Of a stretch of DNA of 64,000 nt, positions 9,461 to 52,315 are shown in pieces. The notes under the pieces were generated by a model, which saw only the letters and a program-made list of their open reading frames with translations, made no database searches and was not told where the DNA came from. A program made the position numbers and the translations under genes. Each line of letters opens with the position of its first letter. Within the stretch, counting starts at the first letter, position 1. Origin of the DNA: Siphonodentalium dalli (taxonomy: Eukaryota > Mollusca > Scaphopoda > Gadilida > Siphonodentaliidae); NCBI GenBank assembly GCA_032622095.1, contig CP136061.1, positions 117,934,754 through 117,998,753 on the forward strand, in the 5' to 3' direction.

Positions 9461-11275
9461 GGGCAGCTGTTAGCATCGACTCCCAAACCGACGTTATGCC
9501 ACACACAGAATTATCCCAAGACATGACGATATGTGAAGAATTGAGATATGAAATTCACTCATAACGTTTATAGATGCGCCCCACATTGTGTCTCCTGACA
9601 TTATTTTCAAAGCGTTGTAAAATTTTCTATCCTCTTGCTTTCACAAGTGTCTCTTTGGAAACTCTTGGTAGAAACCATGGCATTGTCAATTGATACACAA
9701 GTTTAGCACAGATGTTGTTATTTTCTTATTATAAATATGTGTCATAGAACATTCTTGGCACAATCCATTTGAAAAATATTTTCAGTATATCATTGTCATC
9801 GGAAATGACTCAATTGATTGGAACTAAGGTATTTGTCCGGTATTATGTAACGAGCATAAATATAATTTGACTGACTAAAAATTCACGTTGTTAGAAACAA
9901 TTTGAGCCTCTACGCAGACCATATGCAGTCACCATTGCCAACAAGGATAATTCATCAGTAACCGCCTAGTCGTTACCACATAAACCATGGGGTTGCTGGG
10001 TTTTCAAGAATAATTCAAATCGATCATTTTGAATCGATGTTCCAAACCTGTGCAGCAATCTAGACAGAGAAAAACACCCAATAATGTTTTATTGAATGTG
10101 TTGCGGGTGGCGCAAGAATATAGTCCAATGAGCTCGAGTTAAATAGTCCGCAACAATTTGTGTTCTTTGTTTATTCCATACCCATGTGTCGGATTAAGTT
10201 CAATCTTTAAATACGGCCTCCATTCATACTCTAACTACCATAATTAATCCTGATGAATACCCGGTAATGATCGTGGCATCACCACGGAAGCGGAACGTTG
10301 ACGTAATGTACACCAAACACGAAATAGCTTGTATTCAACGTGTATAGAATACAAAATATGTATTCAATGCTGTGCTACACTTGAATATCTGTTCCTCACA
10401 CAAAGGGTGTTGACTAATAGTGAAATAATCTCCACAATGACTACCATGTATATACCGTGGATAAGTTAAAAACCGTTGGTGCTTCTGTTGTAGGATGCTT
10501 GATGTCGATGGATTGACAAGAACGGCCATCGTCGGGTGTGCTTTCCTTCTTACCAACAACGCAATCAAATACCGGGCGTAGACATGGGACATACGGGACT
10601 GCAGAATAGAACAAAGATAATACAAGGCTACAGTTATCTACGAGGACAATTGCAATCAGCTGCGACCAGAAACTATTGTAGTGCATTTATTAATGTTTCA
10701 TCTGGACTACCGATAATGGGCAACACTAATCTTTAACTTAAGAACCAGTTACAATACATGCATATTTCTTCTTCAAACTTAAAGGTACCCTGTACGAGCT
10801 GAAACCATAAAACCACCATCTGTACTTTTTCTATACCAGAAATTATTTATATCTGATCCAGACATGAGCCCATTAACATGAGGTTTTGACCAGATATCGA
10901 CTTTCATCATAGGAAGTGTTAATACATTTTGATCTTGTTGTCATCCAAAAATCCAAATTGTTGTTGTTTCTGACAACAGTGCCCATGCCCCCCCCCCAAA
11001 GCAGTACATATTAAAGAGCATTCTCAATTAAAATCGTTGGTCCTCATTTTCAACGTAAAAGTTACTGGTGGAAGCTTTTGTGGATTTCCGCAATGTTTGG
11101 GAATGATGAATCCATGTATTATTATTATTTTTTTTAATCTTGTCCGGTAAGATGAAAGTTACCATTTGAACGTTTGACTAATTTGTTGTCAAATTGGACC
11201 GTGGACCTTTAAAAGTTGTCACATTGTGTGATCAAAACATGTGAACAATATATCGCATCCCCACAGTGTATAATC
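9461..11275. other. No recognisable gene
   Basis: Overlapping frames on both strands at 10335-10736 are mutual shadows with no recognisable motif. A C-run lies at 10987-10995. Nothing else is supported. Confidence 0.5.
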
Positions 11276-14426: not shown

Positions 14427-14975
14427 TTTGTCACTCTCACCAAACTGTGTACCTTTATCACAATTCTCCCCAACATGTGTACCTTTGTCACAATTCTCCC
14501 CAACCCGTGTACCTTTATCACAATTCTCCCCAACCTGCGTACCTTTATCACAATTCCCCCCAACCTGCGTAACTTTACCGCAATGCTCCCCAACCTGTGT
14601 ACCGTTATCACAATTCTCCCAAACATGTGTACCTTTATCCAATTCTCCCCAACCTGCGTAACTTTACCGCAATTCTCCCCAACATATGTACCTTTATCAC
14701 AATTCTCCCCAACCTGCGCACATTTATCACAATTCTCCCCAACCTGCGTAACTTTACCGCAATTCTCCCCAACCTGTATACCGTTATCACAATACTCCCC
14801 AACCTGTGTACCTTTATCACAATTCCCCCCGACATGCGTACCTTTATCACAATTCTCCCCAACCATGAGTAACTTTATCACAATTCTCCCCAACCTGTGT
14901 AACTTTATCACAATTCTCCCCAACCTGTGTAACTTTATCACAATTCTCCCCAACCTGTGTAACTTTATCACAGTG
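14427..14975. repeat. 30-bp minisatellite, about 18 units
   Basis: The unit CACAATTCTCCCCAACCTGT plus GTACCTTTAT recurs every 30 bp, with one 29-bp and one 31-bp unit. Unit variants differ mainly at TGTGTACC / TGCGTAAC. Because the period is a multiple of three, long frames stay open on both strands (221 codons plus, 246 minus). These are by-products of the periodicity, not genes. The array is flanked by a diverged duplication: GTCGATATCCGGTCAACAAT at 14388 resembles GACATCTGGCCAACAATCCC at about 15148, each followed by CTCTTATTAATG. Confidence 0.9.
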
Positions 14976-16750: not shown

Positions 16751-17741
16751 TACGGTGGCTGGTTTAGGACATGGGAATTTGTGGCCACGAAATAACTAAT
16801 TCGTGGCCACGAAATAACTGTTTTATCCCCATTCAGTCAGATACATTTCATATAACGGCTTATATAGTATCTGGTAGGCTATATCGAATAGACGATTACT
16901 TGTCATACACAAGAACCCGTTTCCGACACTCAGTTCAAGGGAACATTAAATGGGCCTAAAATATTACTCGACCATTTGACCAATTCAGGTCAAACAAAGG
17001 GTGTTGTAGGGTAAACAAAATCAGTCAAGGGGCAAATGAATGGAATGGGTGCCCTGTTTGAACCCCTCTGGACGGCGGTCATTTTGGATCGGGATGAGGT
17101 GAAAGTGGTGAATAGTTAGATTGACTTGGGGGCCATACAACACCCTTTCTTTGGTCTAAATTGGTCGGGGGGGGGAATGGCATGGGTACCCTATTTGAAC
17201 CGCTCCGTACGGCGGCTAGGTGACGAGAACGAGGCAGCGAGGGACAAACGTAAACAAACAGATCGGTGATATATTTTTCATTAAAAGTTACTTTCTGGCG
17301 ATCCAATTGGAATATTAAACTCTGGAGAACTTTAATTTGTTCTGTGTTATGCAGCGATACTTTGTGATATTATGGACACTACGATGAAAGCCTGTTCTTG
17401 AGGTTTGAACATAATAGAAAAGACCAAGAAGATTCAAGACAGGGCGTAAGGGCGACCTCCGGGTGAGCTCACGCCGTCCTCGTGCCGCCCTTCGGGCGGG
17501 CACGCAAATCCTGTTCCTGCTGCTGAACATAATACTTTTCGTAATTTCTCAGCCATTGTTAACTGTTTATCGTACGCCTGTCCACACTGCTTGACAGTGT
17601 TGGTTGATTGCCTATTGTGTGTGTTTATTATCCACTCACGAATAACCGTTTGCTGAATAAACTGAGGGTCTGGAAGGTGAATCATGGTCCACGATACTCG
17701 TTACACGCCGATTATATTGAGGGTACGCAGGGTGACTCCAA

Positions 17742-18754
17742 ATGGATGCAACATCTGATTTACTGAAGCAGTCCAGAGACGTCTTGGCGGATTCGAGCTC
17801 GACTACTGCCACACAGATCGGGAATGGACTAAGTGCAGATGCCAGTGTATTCCACCAGGGACGCTGCAACCAGAATTGGGAACCCAGGTCGGCAATGATT
17901 CAGTCGTCGCCGTTCCACACCAAACACTACTCACTATGACGTCGGTTCTTCAGGGTTTGGAGAGAAGACTAACTGCTATCGAAACCAGTGTATCTCGTCT
18001 TGATGGTATCGATGCATCTATGTCGTCCATGTTGGTCAAATGAACGCTCTCTCTCAAGAAGCGATGCGATGCGATTGAGTCTTCGATTTCGGTAGTGCAT
18101 AAATCAACTCGCGAAGCTAAAGATGAACTAGATGATGTGTCGGTGAAGGTTACTGCGCCCTGTGCTGCTTACCGTGAACTCGAGGAGAGCAATAACACCC
18201 TCCATGAGACCGTGACTGATTTAAAATGTCGTTCAATGAAGAATAACTTGCTCTTCCACGGACTTGCTGAGATTGAGAATGAGAACACAGAGGCGTTGCT
18301 AAAGGAATTCATCGAAACAGAGCTAGGCATCACTGAAAACATCCAGCTTGGAAATGTACATCGCATTGGCCGAAAGCGACGAGGTAGGCACAGGTCGATT
18401 GTGGCAAGATTCATTTTCTGGAAAGACCGGAGAGATGTGTATAGTGCTGCCGGACAGAAGCTTTCGAAAACTCCCTTCTCGGCCAGCCAGCAATTCACAG
18501 ACGAAGTTAGGAACGAGAGGAAAAATCTAATTCCCAAGATGATAGAGGCCAGGAACGATGGACATACAGTGAAGCTTATTAACGATAAACTGTTCATCGA
18601 CGACAAGATGTATAACTCTACATTTAAAGAGAAGTCTAGGCTGGATTTTTTCATCCATAGGTACCAATATGACACGAGAGATGGCGAGGTGTGTACACCA
18701 GTACCCCCACCCGGCGATAGAAAGAGACAACGTCGAAATTCAACGCCACAATAG
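17742..18754 (+). pseudogene. LINE ORF1, RNA-binding protein (broken)
   Basis: ORF1 proteins of this kind bind element RNA and form trimers through an N-terminal coiled coil. The clearest part is 18095-18754 (219 codons). There an RRM-like start CRSMKNNLLFHGL (residues 45-57 of that segment) is followed by NVHRIGRKRRGRHRSIVARF and a basic C-terminus (DRKRQRRNSTPQ). Upstream in the same frame, from ATG 17936, a heptad-like stretch (LQGLERRLTAIETSVSRLD) looks like the coiled coil. An in-frame TGA at 18041 interrupts it. A separate frame at 17742-17939 overlaps the 17936 ATG and may be the original N-terminus shifted by one frame. The stop of ORF1 lies 57 bp before the ORF2 ATG. Role assigned by pattern; high confidence that it is LINE ORF1, lower on clade. 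Confidence 0.75.
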
Positions 18755-18811
18755 GACACATCAGGAGAACGAGATAAGAGGAGGAAAAATTACATTCATA
18801 AATATGACTCA

Positions 18812-20374
18812 TTGAAAATTTTGACACTAAACGTGTGTGGTTTGAAAAGACACTTAAAATGCCCCGAGTTTGTAGAATTTTGTAATGAATTTTACATTTT
18901 ATGTTTTTCGGAATCCAAAACCGACGACTGTGATGAACTGATTCTCGAGGGTTTCAAATTTACCGCAAAAAATCGCCAAAAGTTTTCATTTCGAAAATCT
19001 GGGGGGATTGTCATCGCATATCGTAAGGAACTCGAAAACTACATTAGTCCCATTGCGTCCGATTGTAAGTGTATACATTGGGTCAAAGTCTCGAAAATCA
19101 TTACCAAGTCGAATGGGGATATGATGATAGGGGCTGTATACATTCCACCTGAAAGATCCAAATTTGCTAATAAAGAATTTTTCAATAAAATTGAATGCGA
19201 ATATCTCAGCAAAGCATTAGATTGTGAAAAGGTGATAATTACTGGAGATTTCAATGCCCGCACTGCAGAACTGAGTGACTACGATGAGTTTTATACCGAC
19301 AGAGATAATTTAGATACATGTAGTGATAATATAGTGATACAGAAAGATATATCTAGACTAACCGTATTTGGTTTCTCGCTGAAACGGAAAAACAGTGATA
19401 AAACGGTTAATAGCCACGGCATGTTACTCATAGACATGTGTCGGAGATCTGATCTATTCATTGTAAATGGCAGGTTCGGTGGGGATGCGAAAATCGGTAA
19501 ACTCACATGTAAAAACTCATCAGTAGTTGATTATGTAATTTGTAACACCGACTGTCTGTGTTCGTTCAAAACGTTTGTAGTAAGCGAGTTTAGTTCATTA
19601 CGGTCAGACGCACACTGTGCATTAACATTTACATTGACATCGAAGCGAAAACCCCAAAAATATAATGTAGATAATAGAGATTCAGGAACACCGAAACCCG
19701 CAAGATGGGAACATTCGCTTTGTAAGGAATACATCGGACATATAAATGATGCTAACATTGATTTAGCGATTCAAATGTTTGATGAAAGCATACAATCCGA
19801 AAATCCTCCGAAAGAAAACGTGAATAACTTGACGGACAAAGTTGTAGAAATTTTAGTTGGTTCAGCCCTAAACACTTTCGGTAGGCGAAATAAGTATTCC
19901 AAGAAAACCGATGATAAACCATACACAAAAACCGACAAACCCTGGCTAACCCCCGAATGCAACAGTATGCGGAAAAATTACAAGAAAAATCTAAGAATCT
20001 ACCTTAATGGCCGCAGTGACAGTAACAGAACAGAACTCCGCCAGAGCGAGAAAGAATATAAAAAGTGCCTGAATAATTCAATTAAAATATACGAAAATGA
20101 AATGCAGATTAAGATGGAACATCTCTATAAACACGACCCGAAAGCTTTTTGGAAATCAGTAAAGGGGCGCGACACTGCGCGAGATATTGGCGTGAATATT
20201 GATGAGTTCAGTAGACATTTTAAGCAGCTAAATACACCACACGATCCCAATGATCCAGATATATCATTCGACCATGATAATGGGTACCGACCGATACTCC
20301 CACGGCTACAATCTCGGACAGATCGGATTTACTTAACACACCCATTACTGAGGGTGAAATCGCCACTTGTATAA
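18812..20374 (+). CDS. LINE ORF2, apurinic endonuclease (APE) half
   Basis: This 520-codon frame begins MKILTLNVCGL. The APE-like endonuclease nicks target DNA to prime reverse transcription. Catalytic landmarks are all visible: N7 in LNVCG, E34 in FSESK, GDFNAR at 145-150, VVDY with D240, and SDAH at 265-268. After the endonuclease comes a linker with KPWLTPECNSMRKNYKK and a DPKAFWKSVKG motif, typical of the region before the RT. Reading continues into the RT only after a frame change around 20290-20325; the last 20 or so codons to the stop at 20374 are out of register. No catalytic residue is lost, so the endonuclease half looks intact. Confidence 0.9.
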   Translation: MKILTLNVCGLKRHLKCPEFVEFCNEFYILCFSESKTDDCDELILEGFKFTAKNRQKFSFRKSGGIVIAYRKELENYISPIASDCKCIHWVKVSKIITKSNGDMMIGAVYIPPERSKFANKEFFNKIECEYLSKALDCEKVIITGDFNARTAELSDYDEFYTDRDNLDTCSDNIVIQKDISRLTVFGFSLKRKNSDKTVNSHGMLLIDMCRRSDLFIVNGRFGGDAKIGKLTCKNSSVVDYVICNTDCLCSFKTFVVSEFSSLRSDAHCALTFTLTSKRKPQKYNVDNRDSGTPKPARWEHSLCKEYIGHINDANIDLAIQMFDESIQSENPPKENVNNLTDKVVEILVGSALNTFGRRNKYSKKTDDKPYTKTDKPWLTPECNSMRKNYKKNLRIYLNGRSDSNRTELRQSEKEYKKCLNNSIKIYENEMQIKMEHLYKHDPKAFWKSVKGRDTARDIGVNIDEFSRHFKQLNTPHDPNDPDISFDHDNGYRPILPRLQSRTDRIYLTHPLLRVKSPLV

Positions 20375-22302
20375 GCCATTTAAAGTCAGACAAAGCATCA
20401 TCCGATGACGGAATCCGCAACGAATACATAAAAGCTTCAGCGGGAAAACTCATGCCGTTACTGATAAAACTCTTTAACTACGTGCTCGATATAGGGTGTA
20501 TTCCGGATTCATGGCTTGTGGGTTCTATTATCCCAATATATAAAAAGAAAGGAAGCAAGCAGGAACCAGGCAATTATAGGGGTATAACATTATATAATTA
20601 CTGAGTTGTTTGGGGAAACTATTTACGTCAATTTTGAATACGAGACTCACACAATGTTCTCATACGTTCAATGTAATTCACGAAAATCAGTCAGGATTTC
20701 GAAAAAAGCACTCGACCATTGACAACATTTTTATCATTAATTCTTTACTTGAAATTGCTAGATATAAGAAAAAGAAGATGTTCTGTGCATTCATAGATTT
20801 CGAGAAAGCTTTTGATAGAGTTTGGAGAGAAGGTATGTGGTATAAACTCAGATTAAACCAAATCACTGGTAAAATATATCGCGTAATTGTGAATATGTAT
20901 GACAATTTTAAGTCGAAAGTATTAGCAAATGGCCAAGAGTCAGAGCCGTTCCCTTCTGCAGTTGGTTTAAAACAGGGTGATAATGTCTCCCCTTTTCTTT
21001 TTTCCTTGTACATAAATGACCTGAGCGATTTTGTGGCCAGTGCAGACGTGGAGGGAATGGGAACAGTTTCTAATGAAATGGAGAGAATACTAGACTGTTA
21101 TCTGAAATTGTGTGTCCTTTTTTACGCTGACGATACCGTTTTATTCGCCGAATCAAAAAAAGATCTGCAGTACCAGTTGAACTGTTTCGAAGACTACTGC
21201 CATATATGGAAACTAAAGGTTAACATTCCGAAAACCAAGGTAGTTTACTTCTCACGGGGGCGACAACCCAAACATCTTGGCTTTTCATTCAATAATATTA
21301 ATCTAGAAGTGTCTAGCTCATTCAACTATTTAGGTATACCTCTTTCCAGAAATGGGTCATTTACAGAAGCTAAACGCGCTGCAGTTAGAAAAGCTACTCA
21401 TTCAATGTATGAAGTCTTCAGAATCGGACGTGTACACAAACTATCGATCAATGCGCATTTGCGATTATTTGACACTATGGTTTTACCCATTCTTATTTAT
21501 GGTTCAGAAATATGGGGAGTGGGAGACAACTCCATCATAGAAAGGATGCATTTGAAATTTTGTAAAATGTTGCTACACTTGAGATCCACCACTCCCAGTT
21601 TCATGGTATACGGTGAACTGGGACGATACTCCCTCGATGTCACCATTAAGGTGAGGATAATTAGCTATTGGATCAAGCTTTTGAACGGATCAGTTAATTC
21701 TCTCGCCCAAAAACTATATCAAACTGCCCTCATGATATCCGAAACTGATGGATTTTACACACCTTGGCTGAGAAAAGTGAAGAGTATTTTAAATGATTGT
21801 GGGTTATCATATATGTGGATCGGACAGAATCCCGCCATAGATTTAAATATAACCATATCGCTGGTGAAACAGAAACTGACAATATATTCAACAATGGCAT
21901 GAATCGTGTAAACGCTCCAGTCGAGGAGAAATATACAGGATATTAAAACCGGAATTTGGTCAGGAATATTACATCTCCGAGTTTCGTGATGACATAAAAT
22001 TTACCCTAGCTCGATTCAGAACAAGCAACCACTCATTACCAATAGAAAAGGGTAGGTGGCATAGTACACCCCGTGATGATCGAATATGTACACTATGTAA
22101 CAACGGCCAAATCGGTGACGAAATTCACTATATGTTTTACTGTCAATCATTATCAACAGAGCGAAAAATGCTGTTGCACAAGTCATATTGGAATTACCCA
22201 AGTCCAATGAAACTAAGAATCTTGTTCTCCACGAGAAAACCATCGATAGCTAGGAGACTCTGTAAATTTGTCAAGATTATGGAGGGTCGACTAGTTACTT
22301 GA
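20326..22302 (+). pseudogene. LINE ORF2, reverse transcriptase half and zinc knuckle (frameshifted)
   Basis: The RT starts in the frame giving ITEGEIATCISHLKSDKASS, then IPIYKKKGSKQEPGNYRGIT, and hits a stop near 20602. A second frame, open 20610-21902, carries FIDFEKAFDRVW (residues 61-72), GLKQGDNVSPFLFSLYIND (119-137) and the catalytic FYADD (171-175). A further shift near 21890 moves to the frame ending at 22302, which holds the C-terminal CCHC knuckle (CTLCNNGQIGDEIHYMFYC). There are thus three frame changes across ORF2, counting the one before the RT, and no loss of catalytic motifs. The enzyme copies element RNA at the nicked target; this copy is very likely dead because of the shifts. 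Confidence 0.9.
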
Positions 22303-22557
22303 TGATGTCAGGAAGAGGCCGCATACTATGCCTCCCCACGGCTGTGCCTTGGGTTGGTATGGTGTGGGGGTCCTCGTTGGTCTTATCCAGTGACTGGTTT
22401 ACCCTGCCCCTGATATATTACAGCCAGAACAATATATTTGTATTGAATTGATATATTCCTTATTCGACCAACACTGCCTCTGATATTATGTATACATATG
22501 TAAACATGTTTTCTTTCAACCATTGATGTATGGTATAAGAAATAAATAAATCTATCT
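22303..22557 (+). other. LINE 3' untranslated region and tail
   Basis: Non-coding 3' end of the 17.2-kb LINE. It contains AATAAATAAA close to the end and finishes in an ATCTATCTATT repeat-like tail directly at the junction with host-element sequence. Confidence 0.75.
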
Positions 22558-23418
22558 ATTATGAATCTGAGTGGGGTGAAATGTGTGAATATCTAGACTG
22601 GCTGGCGGCCACACTACAACACCCTTTGTTTGACCTAAATTGGTCAAAGGGACGAGAAATGGCATGGGTGCCCAATTTGAACCCATCTGGACGGCGGCCA
22701 TTTTGGATCGATGTGGGATGAAATATACCCATTTTTAATACACATGGACATGGCGACAATATGTCTGGTAGTTTCACCCGCTTGTTCATTGCTGCATCAG
22801 CTAGCAATATCATGCACATGCAGTGACATGGCAATATGTGGGTGTCCCATTACACTCCCGCCGACACATACGGTAGGCCTAGTCCCACTCAAACGTTTGT
22901 CAAACTATCTTGGGAACTCAACTCCTGACACTTTACAGCTGTTCGGAATAGGGAGGGGCGAGTCGCCACGAAACGCTATAGTTATGTCACCATGTATCTG
23001 ACAAACGTTTGTCATTGATATACACGGAGTGTCCATAGTGAGCGATACAATCATATAACCAACAATATCATGTTACATGTACTTGGCATAATCAAAGATA
23101 TCTCTAAGAAACGTAGTCCTAATGGCCCAGACAAAGGTGCCATTTTTGATATATTAAGTGTTTATATATGCAAATAAATCATATTTATCTGCGTCCATTA
23201 CACCAATGCCATTGTCGGCCATATTCGGCACACAAATACTATTTCGTGGCCACGAAAACACTAATTCGTGGCCACGAAATAGTATTTGTGTGCCGAATGT
23301 TATTTGTGTGCCGAATTAGTTATTTCGTGGCCACGAATTAGTTATTTCGTGGCCACGAATTAGTATTTCGTGGTCACGAAATAAAAAAAAATGCCCATGT
23401 TCTAAACCAGCCACCGTA

Positions 23419-45640: not shown

Positions 45641-45947
45641 ATTAGCAGGAACACATAACATAACCATGCTGTCGAACTTTCATGTTAAGGAAAATCAATT
45701 TTTATCCGCCCGGATAATAACCGTGCAGGACTGCCGCGATTCCCATCGGAACAGCTATTGGAACAGTTCCGTTACAGATGTTCTACATTTGATTCAATTG
45801 CAACACTTCTGGTCGATCACCTTGTATTTTTACAACTCCCTGTATGCCTGCTTCAGAAGATTCTCCTCCCAAGATCACTGTAAGTTAAAGAAAACAGAAC
45901 AGTTTGCTTCGTAATTTGAGGACGCACTTCCAATTCCCACTATAACT

Positions 45948-46584
45948 CCGTTAAATGTCCCTATAAAAAGAACATTCTCACTTAAATCCACCTGGCAGTT
46001 TGCGCTCCAAAATACAGTTCATAATATTTGCTTTTGAATTGTTCCCGGTATCGAAATAGGTCAAAAAATAAATACTTGAACTACTAGCCTTATATGTCAC
46101 AGAAAGACGCATTGAACTTATCAAAATAAAACTTAGAACACGATGTTTGGGTCCCAAATTGGGTCCCAAACAAAATACAGCCACGTGCACGGCATGGATC
46201 AAAAGGAGCGTTCTGTGTTAGTCTATTCCTGATATGGTAGAAGTAAAGAGCGTTTATTTCACTTCTGCGTAAACAGCTCGAAAATGCATGTGACTCTGGA
46301 GTCTGGACAGTATATTCAGAGCATGTATGAAGCCGGTATATCAATATTTCGTGTATTTGTAAACCTATATGATACCCCACTCCGTTAAATGTCCCTATAC
46401 AAAGCACATTCTCACTTAAATCCACCTGGCAGTTTGCGCTCCAAAATACAGTTAATAATATTTGCTTTTGAATTGTTCCCGGTATCGAAATAGGTCAAAA
46501 AATAAATACTTGAACTACTAGCCTTATATGTCACAGAAAGACGCATTGAACTTATCAAAATAAAACTTCGAACACGATGTTTGG
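45948..46584 (+). repeat. 435-bp tandem units; the second is split by the CTAATTAG element
   Basis: Unit 1 is 45948-46384. Unit 2 starts at 46385 and, after the 2.1-kb insertion, continues at 48677-48915. Landmarks are CTCCGTTAAATGTCCCTATA, GCGCTCCAAAATACAGTT, CAGAAAGACGCATTGAACTT, GATGTTTGGGTCCCAAA, AAAGAGCGTT, GATATGGT-GAAATAAAGAGC and GGAGTCTGGACAGTAT. Units are about 95 percent identical over the first 200 bp. A diverged third relative lies at 33045-33425. Confidence 0.88.
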
Positions 46585-46635
46585 TATGGAAGCGTATTGG
46601 TGCCACATAAAAATAAAAATTTGGGCCCCAGTATG

Positions 46636-46925
46636 TCCTAATTAGGAGATCGTAAGTCCTAATTAGGAGATAGTAACTCCTAATTAGGAGATAGCTATGT
46701 CCTAATTAGGAGATAGTAAGTCCTAATTAGGAGATAGTAACTCCTAATTAGGATATAGTAAGTCCTAATTAGGAGATAGTAAGTCCTAATTAGGACTTAG
46801 TATCTCCTAATTAGGAGTTACTATCTCCTAATTAGGAGATAGTATCTCCTAATTAGGAGATATTATCTCCTAATTAGGACTTAGTATCTCCTAATTAGGA
46901 GATATTATCTCCTAATTAGGAGATA
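46636..46925. repeat. Left CTAATTAG array, 14 units of 21 bp
   Basis: Each unit has a perfect TCCTAATTAGGA palindrome spaced by a 9-base linker (GATAGTAAG, CTTAGTATC and variants). The linker reads one way in the first half and mostly the other way in the second half, so the array as a whole is close to palindromic. CTAATTAG contains the TAATTA core bound by many homeodomain proteins. Confidence 0.93.
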
Positions 46926-47895
46926 ACACACATATAAAGAACTCAACATGTTCGTGGTCAGATTCATCTCCGGATCACTCGGCTAACGGTCGCATCGCTC
47001 CGTTCGTTATCATGCATGCCTTTCGCCCTTGTTTTCAAAATTAAAGGCTTAAAATGAGGGGTTAGGGAAAGGACCTATGGGCCTTTTCAAGAATCCCGGA
47101 GTTAGCCACCCCATACCCCAATCCGCCGCTGTCATTTTATTATATATATATGACAAAGTTATGTTACAGGGCCAGATGTGTGTATCATATAGTTAATCCA
47201 CGACGTAGAGATATGTATATACCAGTGACTATCCAGAGATAATTTTATGTCACCTGTTTATATGCCAAAATAATTTCATTTCATTTTCAGTTTACGCTTA
47301 ACAGTACGTAGAGATATTTGCAATTTCCGTGTAAATTAGACAAACATTGGACGATGTATTTATAACTCAGCCCCAAATTGAAGTAGAGTTGCAATGATTC
47401 ATCCATTGCAAACGAATGAATACAATAATTATGTGAGTGGGTCTAAATGACCGCGAACCGTTTATTGGGAATTTGGGATTGGGGCCCGGGAGGATTTGGA
47501 AGGGCAGTATGCCCCCCCCCCCCCCCCACGACCCACTTAGGAATGATGTTGGGTGTTATTAATGGTGATATAACAATGAAAAATGATGGGAAAATGATCT
47601 AAACTTTTTTTACTTCTTCTTTTTCGCTTTTCCCCCTAATTCTGTATACTGTTTCTGTGTTTCACTTGTTCTTTTTCTTCTTCCCTCGAGTGGTATTGAT
47701 GCCCCCTGAGGGTGGTTTCCTGTTGACCCTACCAGAGGTATATCATACCCTATCAGGCCACTGTTGATACTGGTGTGACCTGTTACTGCAAAACCACTTC
47801 AAGTCAGCCTGCATTTGTACGTATGGTCATGATTGGTCCATGGACACAATGCACCGACTGGAAAGAGTTCACCTCGTGCGAGACATGGCTGGGGA

Positions 47896-48243
47896 TTAAA
47901 GGGTACTGTACACTAAATCCAGCTATTTATGAGACCATCTCCTTTTATACTCAACATAATATATTTGATTGAATGAATTTGAGCCATGGATTAGCGCAAA
48001 GTACACTCGTGTGTTCTACGAATGATGCAAACAACATGGTAATTATAATGGAAATTAATAAACGGCTGGAGTCATAAATAAATTTTCATTATAATTACCA
48101 TGTTATTTTATTCGTTCATAGAGCACACGAGTGTATTTTGCACTAATACATGTCTCAAATTCATTCATTTGTTGCATAAACTCTGTTGAGTATAAACGGA
48201 GATGGTCACACAAATTGTCGGATTTAGTGTACAGTCCCCTTTA
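47896..48243. mobile_element. TTAA-site MITE, complete palindromic copy (copy 3)
   Basis: TTAA + AGGGTACTGTACACTAAAT ... ATTTAGTGTACAGTCCCCT + TTAA. The arms pair through GAATGAATTTGAGCC, ACACTCGTGTG and GGTAATTATAATG blocks almost to the centre. It is nested inside the CTAATTAG element, so it inserted after that element or was carried by it. Confidence 0.88.
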
Positions 48244-48381
48244 AGCTATCCATGTCCAGCCAAGCCCGACAGAAAAATCAACCGTCACTCAAAGAGGGCA
48301 CGTCCTTTCTCTGGGCGGCGACTCTGAGCGATGGATGGGAATGAAAATGACCGCTAACTGGTGTTGAGTTCTTTTACTAAG

Positions 48382-48627
48382 TCCTAATTAGGAGATACTA
48401 AGTCCTAATTAGGAGATACTAAGTCCTAATTAGGAGATAAATATCTCCTAATTAGGAGATAATAAGTCCTAATTAGGAGATACTATCTCCTAATTAGGAG
48501 ATACTAAGTCCTAATTAGGAGATACTAAGTCCTAATTAGGAGATACTATCTCCTAATTAGGACTTACTATCTCCTAATTAGGACTTACTATCTCCTAATT
48601 AGGACTTACTATCTCCTAATTAGGACA
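48382..48627. repeat. Right CTAATTAG array, 12 units of 21 bp
   Basis: Inverted counterpart of the left array. The last units use the CTTACTATC linker and end in GGACATACTGGGACCC, the complement of the left array's start. Confidence 0.93.
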
Positions 48628-48676
48628 TACTGGGACCCAAATTTTTATTTTTATGTGGCACTAATACGCTTCCATA

Positions 48677-48915
48677 GTTTGGGTCCCAAACTGGGTCCCA
48701 AATAAAATACAGCCATTTGCACGGCATGAAACAAAAAAGAGCGTTCTGTGTTGGTTTATTCCTGATATGGTTGAAATAAAGAGCGTTTATTGCAAACAGC
48801 TCGAAAAAAAAGAGCTGGAAAATGTATGTGACTCTGGAGTCTGGACAGTATTTTCAGAGCATGTATGGAGCCGGTATATCAATATTTTGTGCATTTGTAA
48901 ACCATATCTGATACC
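48677..48915 (+). repeat. Remainder of tandem unit 2
   Basis: GTTTGGGTCCCAAACTGGGT onward continues unit 2 after the insertion and matches 46141-46384. Confidence 0.85.
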
Positions 48916-50940: not shown

Positions 50941-51002
50941 ACAATGCACCCCGTTCCCGGTTCCTACAAATAATATTTCCGGGAAACGGGAATGATTATG
51001 TA

Positions 51003-52265
51003 CGATGGCTGGTTTAGGTCATGGGAATTTTTGTTTTTATTCGTGGCCACGAAATACTAATTCGTGGCCACGAAATAACAAATTCGTGGCCACGAAATAA
51101 CTATTTTGAAATAACTATTTTATCCCCATTCAGTCAGATACACTTCATATAACGGCTTATATTATCTGGTAGGCTATGTCGAATAGACGGTTACTTGTCA
51201 TACACAAGAACCCGTTTCCGACACACAGTCCAAGGGAACATTAAATGGGCCTAAAATATTACTCGACCATTTGACCGATTTAGGTCAAACAAAGGGTGTT
51301 GTAGGGTAAACGAAATCGGTCAAGGGGCAAATAAATGGAATGGGTGCCCTGTTTGAACCCCATCTGGACGGCGGTCATTTTGGATCGGAATGAGGTGAAA
51401 GCGGTGAATAGTCAGATTGACTTGGGGGGTCATACAACACCCTTTCTTTGATCTAAATTGGTCGAGGGGGCGAGAAATGACACGCGTACCCTATTTGAAC
51501 CGCTCCGTACGGCGGCCATTATGAATCTGGGTGGGGTGAAATGTGTGAATATCTAGACTAGCTGGCGGGCCACTCTACAACACCCTTTGTTTGACTTAAA
51601 TTGGTCAAAGGGACGAGAAATGGCATGGGTGCCCTATTTGAACCCATCTGGACGGCGGCCATTTTGGATCGATGTGGGATGAAATATACCCATCTTTAAT
51701 ACACATGGACATGGCGACAATATGTCTGGTAGTTTCACCCCCTTGTTCATTGCTGCATCAGCTAGCAATATCATGCACATGCAGTGGACATGGCAATATG
51801 TGGGTGTCCCATTCCACTCCCACCGACACACACGGAAGGCCTAGTCCCACTCAAACGTTTGTCAAACTATCGTGGGAACTCAACTCCTGACACTTTACAG
51901 CTGTTCGGAATAGGGAGGGGCGAGTCGCCACGAAACGATATAGTTATGTCACCATGTATCTGACAAACGTTTGTAATTTATATACACGGAGTGTCCATAG
52001 TGAGCGATACAATCATATAACCAACAATAGCCTGTTACATGTACTTGGCATAATCAAAGATATCTCGAAGAAATGTAGTCCTAATGGCCCAGACAAAGGT
52101 GCTATTTTTTATATAAATGTTTATATATGCAAATAAATCATATCTATCTGCGTCCGTTACACCAATGTTATTTCGTGGCCACGAATTAGTTATTTCGTGG
52201 CCACGAATTAGTATTTCGTGTTTACGAAATAAAAAAACAATTCCCAGGTCCCAAACCAGCCACCG
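51003..52265. mobile_element. TIR transposon with TTCGTGGCCACGAA palindromes (copy 2, uninterrupted)
   Basis: Ends CGATGGCTGGTTTAGGTCAT and complement, with TA on each side (51001-51002, 52266-52267). It has three TTCGTGGCCACGAA palindromes on the left, two perfect and one decayed on the right, and the same three internal tandem units as copy 1. It is 1,263 bp and non-coding. It preserves the sequence GGCGGCCATTATGAATCTGG (51511-51530) that the LINE interrupts in copy 1. Confidence 0.9.
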
Positions 52266-52315
52266 TAAGTATGGGACCCGAGAACCGAGAAATACCCGTT
52301 CCCGGGATTAAACTC

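Follow-up and report, generated by a model that had tools for sequence, protein, structure and literature searches.

Background

The IS3EU families of DNA transposons described by Kojima create 6-bp target site duplications (TSDs) and have terminal inverted repeats (TIRs) longer than 30 bp with the ends TAYGG..CCRTA (PMC12730594; also PMC10045372). The elements described here share these ends, the duplication, the TIR length and an IS3/IS481-related DDE transposase. They differ in having palindromic subterminal arrays, a TA-N16-TA frame and copies of about 40 kb, none of which appears in the available portions of the two descriptions (PMC12730594, PMC10045372). No description of palindromic arrays in IS3EU was found in the open-licence literature searched, judged mostly by titles and abstracts.

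In CACTA transposons (En/Spm, Tgmt*), the subterminal repeats are element-specific, have diverged between families, are bound by TNPA and are needed for movement, according to the available portion of PMC2613891. Repeated element-specific sites inside both ends that differ between families also occur in the elements reported here. The Tgmt* elements, however, have 13-bp CACTA ends, a 3-bp TSD and direct or inverted motifs that form stem-loops (PMC2613891, same portion), whereas the IS3EU-type sites are regularly spaced palindromes, the first dyad of which mostly lies at a fixed distance from the end. TNPA on the CACTA subterminal repeats may be regarded as the closest working parallel, although the window element is not a CACTA transposon.

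Plasmid iterons are series of sites spaced by about two helical turns, with a proposed role in copy-number titration. They belong to bacterial replication origins and are usually direct repeats rather than palindromes. The arrays described here resemble them in the two-turn spacing and differ in the form of the unit and in the replication role.

DNA transposons of 40 kb or more are known from the Teratorn elements (41-182 kb), which unlike those described here are piggyBac-related and carry herpesvirus genes (PMC6431247). The available text of that review of giant transposons names IS3EU 0 times.

Here we describe an IS3EU element from the scaphopod Siphonodentalium dalli together with its relatives in the same genome. 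New are the tandem arrays upstream of the transposase loci, the palindromes of which are lineage-specific.

Structure of the window element

The window is the whole stretch of 64,000 nucleotides that was analysed (contig CP136061.1, positions 117,934,754 to 117,998,753). It contains a defective TIR transposon of 2,092 bp (46585-48676), the inverted ends of which agree at 67 of 70 terminal positions. The features of the element and its surroundings are as follows.

45945-46376, no strand: empty site, the uninterrupted tandem neighbour, with a single GTTTGG at 46145-46150
46579-46584, no strand: left TSD GTTTGG
46585-46635, + strand: left TIR, beginning TATGGAAGCGTATTGGTGCCACATAAAAATAAAAATTTGGG; the first palindrome begins at nucleotide 52 of the element
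46636-46921, no strand: left array of 14 perfect TCCTAATTAGGA sites, period 21
47326-47406, - strand: remains of a decayed transposase N-terminus, in which 27 residues show 52% identity to residues 4-30 of the L009 frame (E 6e-4)
47896-48244, no strand: internal inverted repeat of about 350 bp, matching its own reverse complement at about 80%
48382-48625, no strand: right array of 12 perfect TCCTAATTAGGA sites, period 21
48626-48676, - strand: right TIR
48677-48682, no strand: right TSD GTTTGG

In the adjacent tandem unit, 45945-46150 matches the left flank up to and including GTTTGG (98%), and 46145-46376 matches the right flank starting with GTTTGG (87%). The two matches have exactly those six bases in common, which bears out an earlier sequence-only reading that had taken GTTTGG as a 6-bp duplication and the tandem neighbour as its proof. 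The interval given there, 46579-48682, marks the right place, and because it begins and ends with a copy of GTTTGG it comprises the element proper and both duplications. The two terminal palindrome arrays of the TIR element were correctly recognised, and all 26 units are indeed perfect TCCTAATTAGGA palindromes. The proposed unit of 21 bp holds for the 14 and 12 units, except that each array contains a single 22-bp step.

The window copy is 1.5% off the family majority, yet 312 of 312 core bases are intact (probability by chance about 0.01). CTAATTAG was seen at two further window positions, 3090 and 62596. The window also contains an 18-copy tandem repeat with a 30-bp unit (14435-14972), which has no relation to the palindromes.

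Classification and coding capacity

The superfamily had been thought impossible to tell from the ends. This view is not sustained, as TAYGG..CCRTA ends with a 6-bp TSD are the published description of IS3EU in the portions available. The window element has TATGG..CCATA, the TSD GTTTGG and TIRs that match at 67 of 70 positions, and the other lineages begin with TACGG or TATGG. An IS3/IS481-type DDE transposase is encoded by relatives, and the window copy holds only a fragment. CACTA ends and a 3-bp duplication are absent from the window element. It is a DNA transposon of the IS3EU kind, non-autonomous and internally deleted.

The larger, transposase-bearing copy that the sequence-only reading had proposed to look for exists at locus L009. 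Its end equals the left end of the window element over the first 37 bases and is followed by 74 perfect palindromes, the longest array seen, and then by an open frame matching Pfam rva_4 (E 1.3e-29). Another frame, exon-like, has a weak rva_4 match below cut-off (E 0.023). This copy spans positions 81 to about 10750 of the locus, where a second element starts at 10752, and it has no duplication and no recognisable right end of its own.

All five of the relatives' proteins compared match rva_4, and all five match IS3/IS481 models below curated cut-offs (best E 2.1e-8). D130, D189 and E229 are invariant across the five sequences and are probably the catalytic residues. The rva_4 domain is probably the IS3EU transposase domain. 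Judging from the ends, the duplication and the IS3/IS481 similarity, the enzyme is most plausibly an IS3EU transposase. The alignment of the five retrieved 57 pattern matches from viral contigs in a search for relatives in other species, none of which was confirmed, and a PDB search with it gave none at E 0.01. Helix-turn-helix Pfam hits in L040 and L044 are weak and below cut-off, and L009 and L038 have none.

The N-terminal fragment of the window element is also found in 16 other loci of its family (17 including the window), with 43-52% identity and E from 3e-5 to 7e-4. By eye, the broken gene L065 is closer to the window fragment (FSLGLSYKCIVQCLSNLSG against FNLGLSYKYIVQCLSNLHG). The fragment and L065 together indicate that the window element arose by internal deletion, and that the gene of its own lineage was found only as a fossil. 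No array was found beside the fossil gene (L065, L088 and L089), save a lone CTAATTAG in L089.

Copies in the genome

The search covered one genome, 2.23 Gb in nine contigs. Palindrome pairs exactly 21 bp apart occur 2,230 times, and the reversed-pattern control gave 0. Whether the arrays occur independently of the ends, as in a simple satellite, was judged on the first of these pairs, about 50 in number, which form seven clusters. Each of the seven lies within 3 kb of a transposon end, and six within 0.5 kb; among the pairs listed this end is the exact 25-mer in six clusters and a 25-mer with a single mismatch in L003. Genome-wide, the 25-base end TATGGAAGCGTATTRGTGCCACMTA is found without mismatch 214 times (103 forward, 111 reverse; control 0). 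The expectation of further copies with the same ends and arrays is thus confirmed.

The predicted constancy of the duplication was also found. It is a perfect 6 bp in 35 of the 50 TIR pairs examined, which cover four end types. The 50 comprise 36 pairs measured whole, seven seen by their ends, five without duplication and, described below, the window's two elements of a second family; two alternative pairings, inside L004 and L010, are left out of the count. Twenty-nine of the 36 whole pairs have perfect duplications, and the other seven match at 5, 5, 4, 2, 1, 1 and 0 of 6 positions. Six of the seven pairs seen by their ends are perfect, and L077/L078 has a 7-bp direct repeat instead. Duplications of 5 of 6 bases occur in four pairs (L004, L036 and both second-family window elements), and no duplication was found at L001, L002, L009/L010, L011/L012 and L013/L014.

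Several of these candidates were considered and rejected. L001 and L002 were candidate autonomous copies and have neither a transposase match nor a duplication. The long pair L009/L010 lacks a duplication and has a second element inside, and the long pairs L011/L012 and L013/L014 likewise lack duplications, with window-element matches arranged as if several elements were present.

Both halves bear sites in 28 of the 29 whole copies with perfect duplications; the left half of L072, the exception, has no site. The shortest perfectly duplicated copies, of 282, 298 and 347 bp, have little in them besides their ends and sites. In 23 of the 29 window-type elements measured whole, the first site starts at nucleotide 52, and in the others at 41 (L017, L034), 49 (L018, L031), 62 (L029) or 83 (L023). 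The number of sites ranges from 4 to 41 in elements measured whole.

Arrays upstream of transposase genes

The genome contains at least 126 rva_4 matches (150 of 241 candidates scored). The upstream side was read at 29 transposase loci, namely L009 and sets of eight and twenty. A tandem array lies upstream at 24 of the 29, with units mostly of 19-23 bp and extremes of 15 bp (L050) and 39 bp (L058); L042 has 3 copies only. L065 has no upstream array. Short repeats were not counted as arrays, these being a 5-copy repeat of 12 bp at L060 and repeats of 2 to 4 copies at L046, L047 and L048. Since the catalytic part alone was matched at L046, L047, L048 and L062, the gene start there may be elsewhere. 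In the four lineages measured, 84-99 bp separate the last upstream site from the gene start, the position of which was taken from the sequence.

The unit is palindromic at 16 of the 29 loci. The 11 gene-linked palindromes differ by lineage.

L009: TCCTAATTAGGA
L063/L064: CAGCTAATTAGCTG
L038/L039: GGCGTTTAAACGCC
L057: TTGCGTTTAAACGCAA
L040/L041: CCTGATATATCAGG
L044/L045/L055: TCGTGGCCACGA
L058: TTCGTGCGCACGAA
L052: CAAGTTAGCTAACTTG
L053: TCGAGATCTCGA
L059: CTTGCTGCAGCAAG
L051: TCTCCCAGGGAGA

The palindrome length was compared with 5,000 shuffles of each unit for 17 consensus units, a set that left out L058. It was matched in at most 96 shuffles for 11 of the 17 (uncorrected counts), the least striking being L051 (96) and L053 (84). 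The units of L043, L049, L050, L056, L061 and L062 are not significantly palindromic against their shuffles. In the sister lineage L063/L064, with an N-terminus 57-60% identical, CTAATTAG is kept and the outer bases have changed on both arms. That related transposons of this genome carry different palindromes in the same layout beside the transposase gene points to an address label peculiar to each element and read by its own enzyme.

Shared frame, distance to the end and constraint

A frame noticed post hoc, TA-N16-TA, with TA at -10/-9 and +9/+10 from the dyad, is present in 8 of 12 palindromes and in 75-100% of their units (L057 is based on 4 units and L059 on 6). L044 (TA at 11), L052 (TA at 12), L058 and L061 do not fit it.

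Five lineages (L038, L040, L044, L053 and L059) have the dyad nearest the terminus at 46-47 nucleotides, and so do the CCTA subtype and, at their left ends, L073/L074. In the window, L009 and L063 lineages this dyad lies at 56-57, about one helical turn further in. Exceptions are found at 45 (right ends of L073/L074), 55 (one end of L070), 54 (L057), 51 (L058), 79 (L052), 60 (right end of L017), 80 (the second element in L010), 135 and 58 (L071), and 298 and 44 (L072).

In 13 window-type copies, 413 of 430 slots have a perfect core (0.960); at the internal divergence of these copies, 1.07% per base, 0.879 would be expected. This excess is overstated to some degree, because the units of an array depend on one another and only slots lying between perfect sites entered the count, and it gives modest support for constraint.

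Second window family, reassortment and giant copies

Two further IS3EU-like elements in the window belong to a second family.

16751-23418: TACGGTGGCTGGTTTAG ends and TTCGTGGCCACGAA-type sites near both ends, flanked by CCTTTC/CCTGTC (5 of 6)
51001-52267: another element of this family, flanked by ATTATG/AGTATG (5 of 6)

The TTCGTGGCCACGAA units of this family are 22 bp long, and its exact 25-base end occurs 204 + 222 times in the genome (control 0). The first dyads of the two elements lie 34, 45, 46 and 67 nucleotides from the end.

Palindrome and TIR reassort. The palindrome TCGTGGCCACGA of L044/L045/L055 is combined with either of two apparently unrelated TIRs, TATGGAGCCCC.. and TACGGTGGCTGG.., an observation that also concerns window element 16751-23418. 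Conversely, the TIR type TACGGTGGCTG occurs with two palindromes, of which L053 carries TCGAGATCTCGA.

Two giant copies with transposase were found in the GGCGTTTAAACGCC lineage. One, of 40,876 bp, lies at C8:155464449-155505324 with GTATCA on either side, and the other, of 39,494 bp, at C7:164195858-164235351 with AAAGGG on either side (about 26 of its 39.5 kb were read). Both have sites at either end and perfect 6-bp duplications of different targets. A 2,001-bp internal piece, which by eye sits in a stretch resembling a gypsy-type retroelement, is 99.65% identical between them, and the longest matches between the ends compared are 97-98.5%. Near-identity of internal piece and ends at differently targeted giants makes it appear that the 40-kb unit moved whole. 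Nested insertions and tandem repeats seem to have swollen it to this size. With the two giants, the IS3EU type gains copies of about 40 kb whose duplications are intact.

What reads the arrays

The best joint explanation, which we consider likely, is that the window element is a deleted IS3EU transposon and that its palindromes are operator-like sites for the N-terminus of its own family's transposase, bound as a dimer. The sequence-only reading had suggested iteron-like arrays to which a transposase could bind, and we judge this suggestion right, with binding predicted from sequence. The N-terminal, helix-turn-helix-like part of the transposase would bind the palindromes, and sites set in rows with a spacing of about two helical turns may load the enzyme at both ends and aid their pairing. 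With a row some 84-99 bp ahead of its start, the gene would regulate itself, and non-autonomous copies could serve as decoys. Each lineage would alter its half-site together with the reading head and so escape cross-mobilisation.

More tentatively, and with slightly more doubt than belief on our part, the system may be a modular address. A dimer would sit on a 20-bp TA-N-(7 bp)-(7 bp)-N-TA site in helical register with the cleaved end, the outer TA being fixed and the inner half-site rewritten in each lineage. The lineages would be mutually blind because of that rewriting, address and end could be swapped, and passengers of up to 40 kb could be carried.

An element-encoded protein other than the transposase is an unlikely reader of the sites. 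Such a division of labour has a precedent in CACTA elements, where TNPA, which is distinct from the transposase, reads the subterminal sites (PMC2613891, available portion), and it would suit the weak or absent helix-turn-helix matches of the transposases. Against it, no second gene was recognised by eye beside an array, in most gene-bearing copies over at most about 8 kb and in the C7 giant over about 26 of 39.5 kb.

We find it improbable, too, that the arrays are functionless minisatellites grown by recombination inside TIR elements. Growth of this kind would fit the wide range in site number (4-41, and 74 in L009) and the non-palindromic arrays of similar period in some relatives. It would not lead one to expect arrays at the equivalent place in many diverged lineages, units of which 11 of 17 are palindromic to a degree reached in at most 96 of 5,000 shuffles, a mostly fixed first dyad and sites in both halves of 28 of 29 copies.

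The proposal that the arrays are host transcription-factor sites, exploited for expression or delivered to host genes, is very unlikely to be correct. It had been put forward for homeodomain proteins, which recognise TAATTA. All units of the window, L009 and L063/L064 arrays contain this motif, the array lies just upstream of the gene in gene-bearing copies, and some spacers contain TAATTA as well (16 of 53 neighbouring pairs in L038/L039, 6 of 15 in L053). Spacer TAATTA is absent from the other families counted, however, and arrays lie at both ends, even at the gene-distal end of the giants. Related lineages with CCTGATATATCAGG, TCGTGGCCACGA, CTTGCTGCAGCAAG and others lack the motif, while palindromy, spacing and position are retained. 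Delivery of homeodomain sites is not a general explanation, since only two of 12 palindromes have TAATTA, and it leaves the lineage-specific sequences and the distance to the end unexplained.

Loopless palindromes of 12-14 bp extrude poorly. That the palindromes act as DNA structure (a cruciform or hairpin) in transposition or replication, with no sequence-specific protein needed, is equally hard to credit; symmetry does outlast sequence change across lineages and there are snap-back inverted duplications among the copies (L006, L023), but structure alone accounts neither for the outer TA pairs nor for the distance to the end or the constancy of the core within lineages. The host flanks of L006 (201-420) and L023 (65-686) are inverted repeats of each other, with first exact runs of 28 and 14 bases, and these two loci are either snap-back inverted duplications or assembly fold-backs.

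Implications for coevolution of site and reader

About eleven transposase lineages in one genome form a natural series, each adjoining its own many-times-written putative binding site. For CACTA elements, the rate at which subterminal repeats coevolve with the exons that recognise them had been raised as a question (PMC2613891, available portion), and such a series makes that question directly testable. The lineages offer candidate orthogonal pairs of site and reader, and hint at how related transposons could diversify without mobilising each other's copies.

In a Mantel test of N-terminal against half-site identity, on the 11 of 14 aligned lineages with an assigned dyad, the correlation was not significant (r 0.175, reached by 2,905 of 20,000 permutations). 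The pairs with the closest N-termini (63% and 56%) have 0.62 and 0.75 of the inner half-site in common. The fraction is 0.12 for L064/L061 (N-termini 51% identical), zero for L040/L052 (45%) and 0.75 for L038/L057 (39%).

Frames resembling the N-terminus also occur by themselves. At C7:17693075-17706318 there are five in tandem, of 229 amino acids and about 3 kb apart, the first of which is covered by L061. About 40 loci like these match the N-terminal part of the transposase only.
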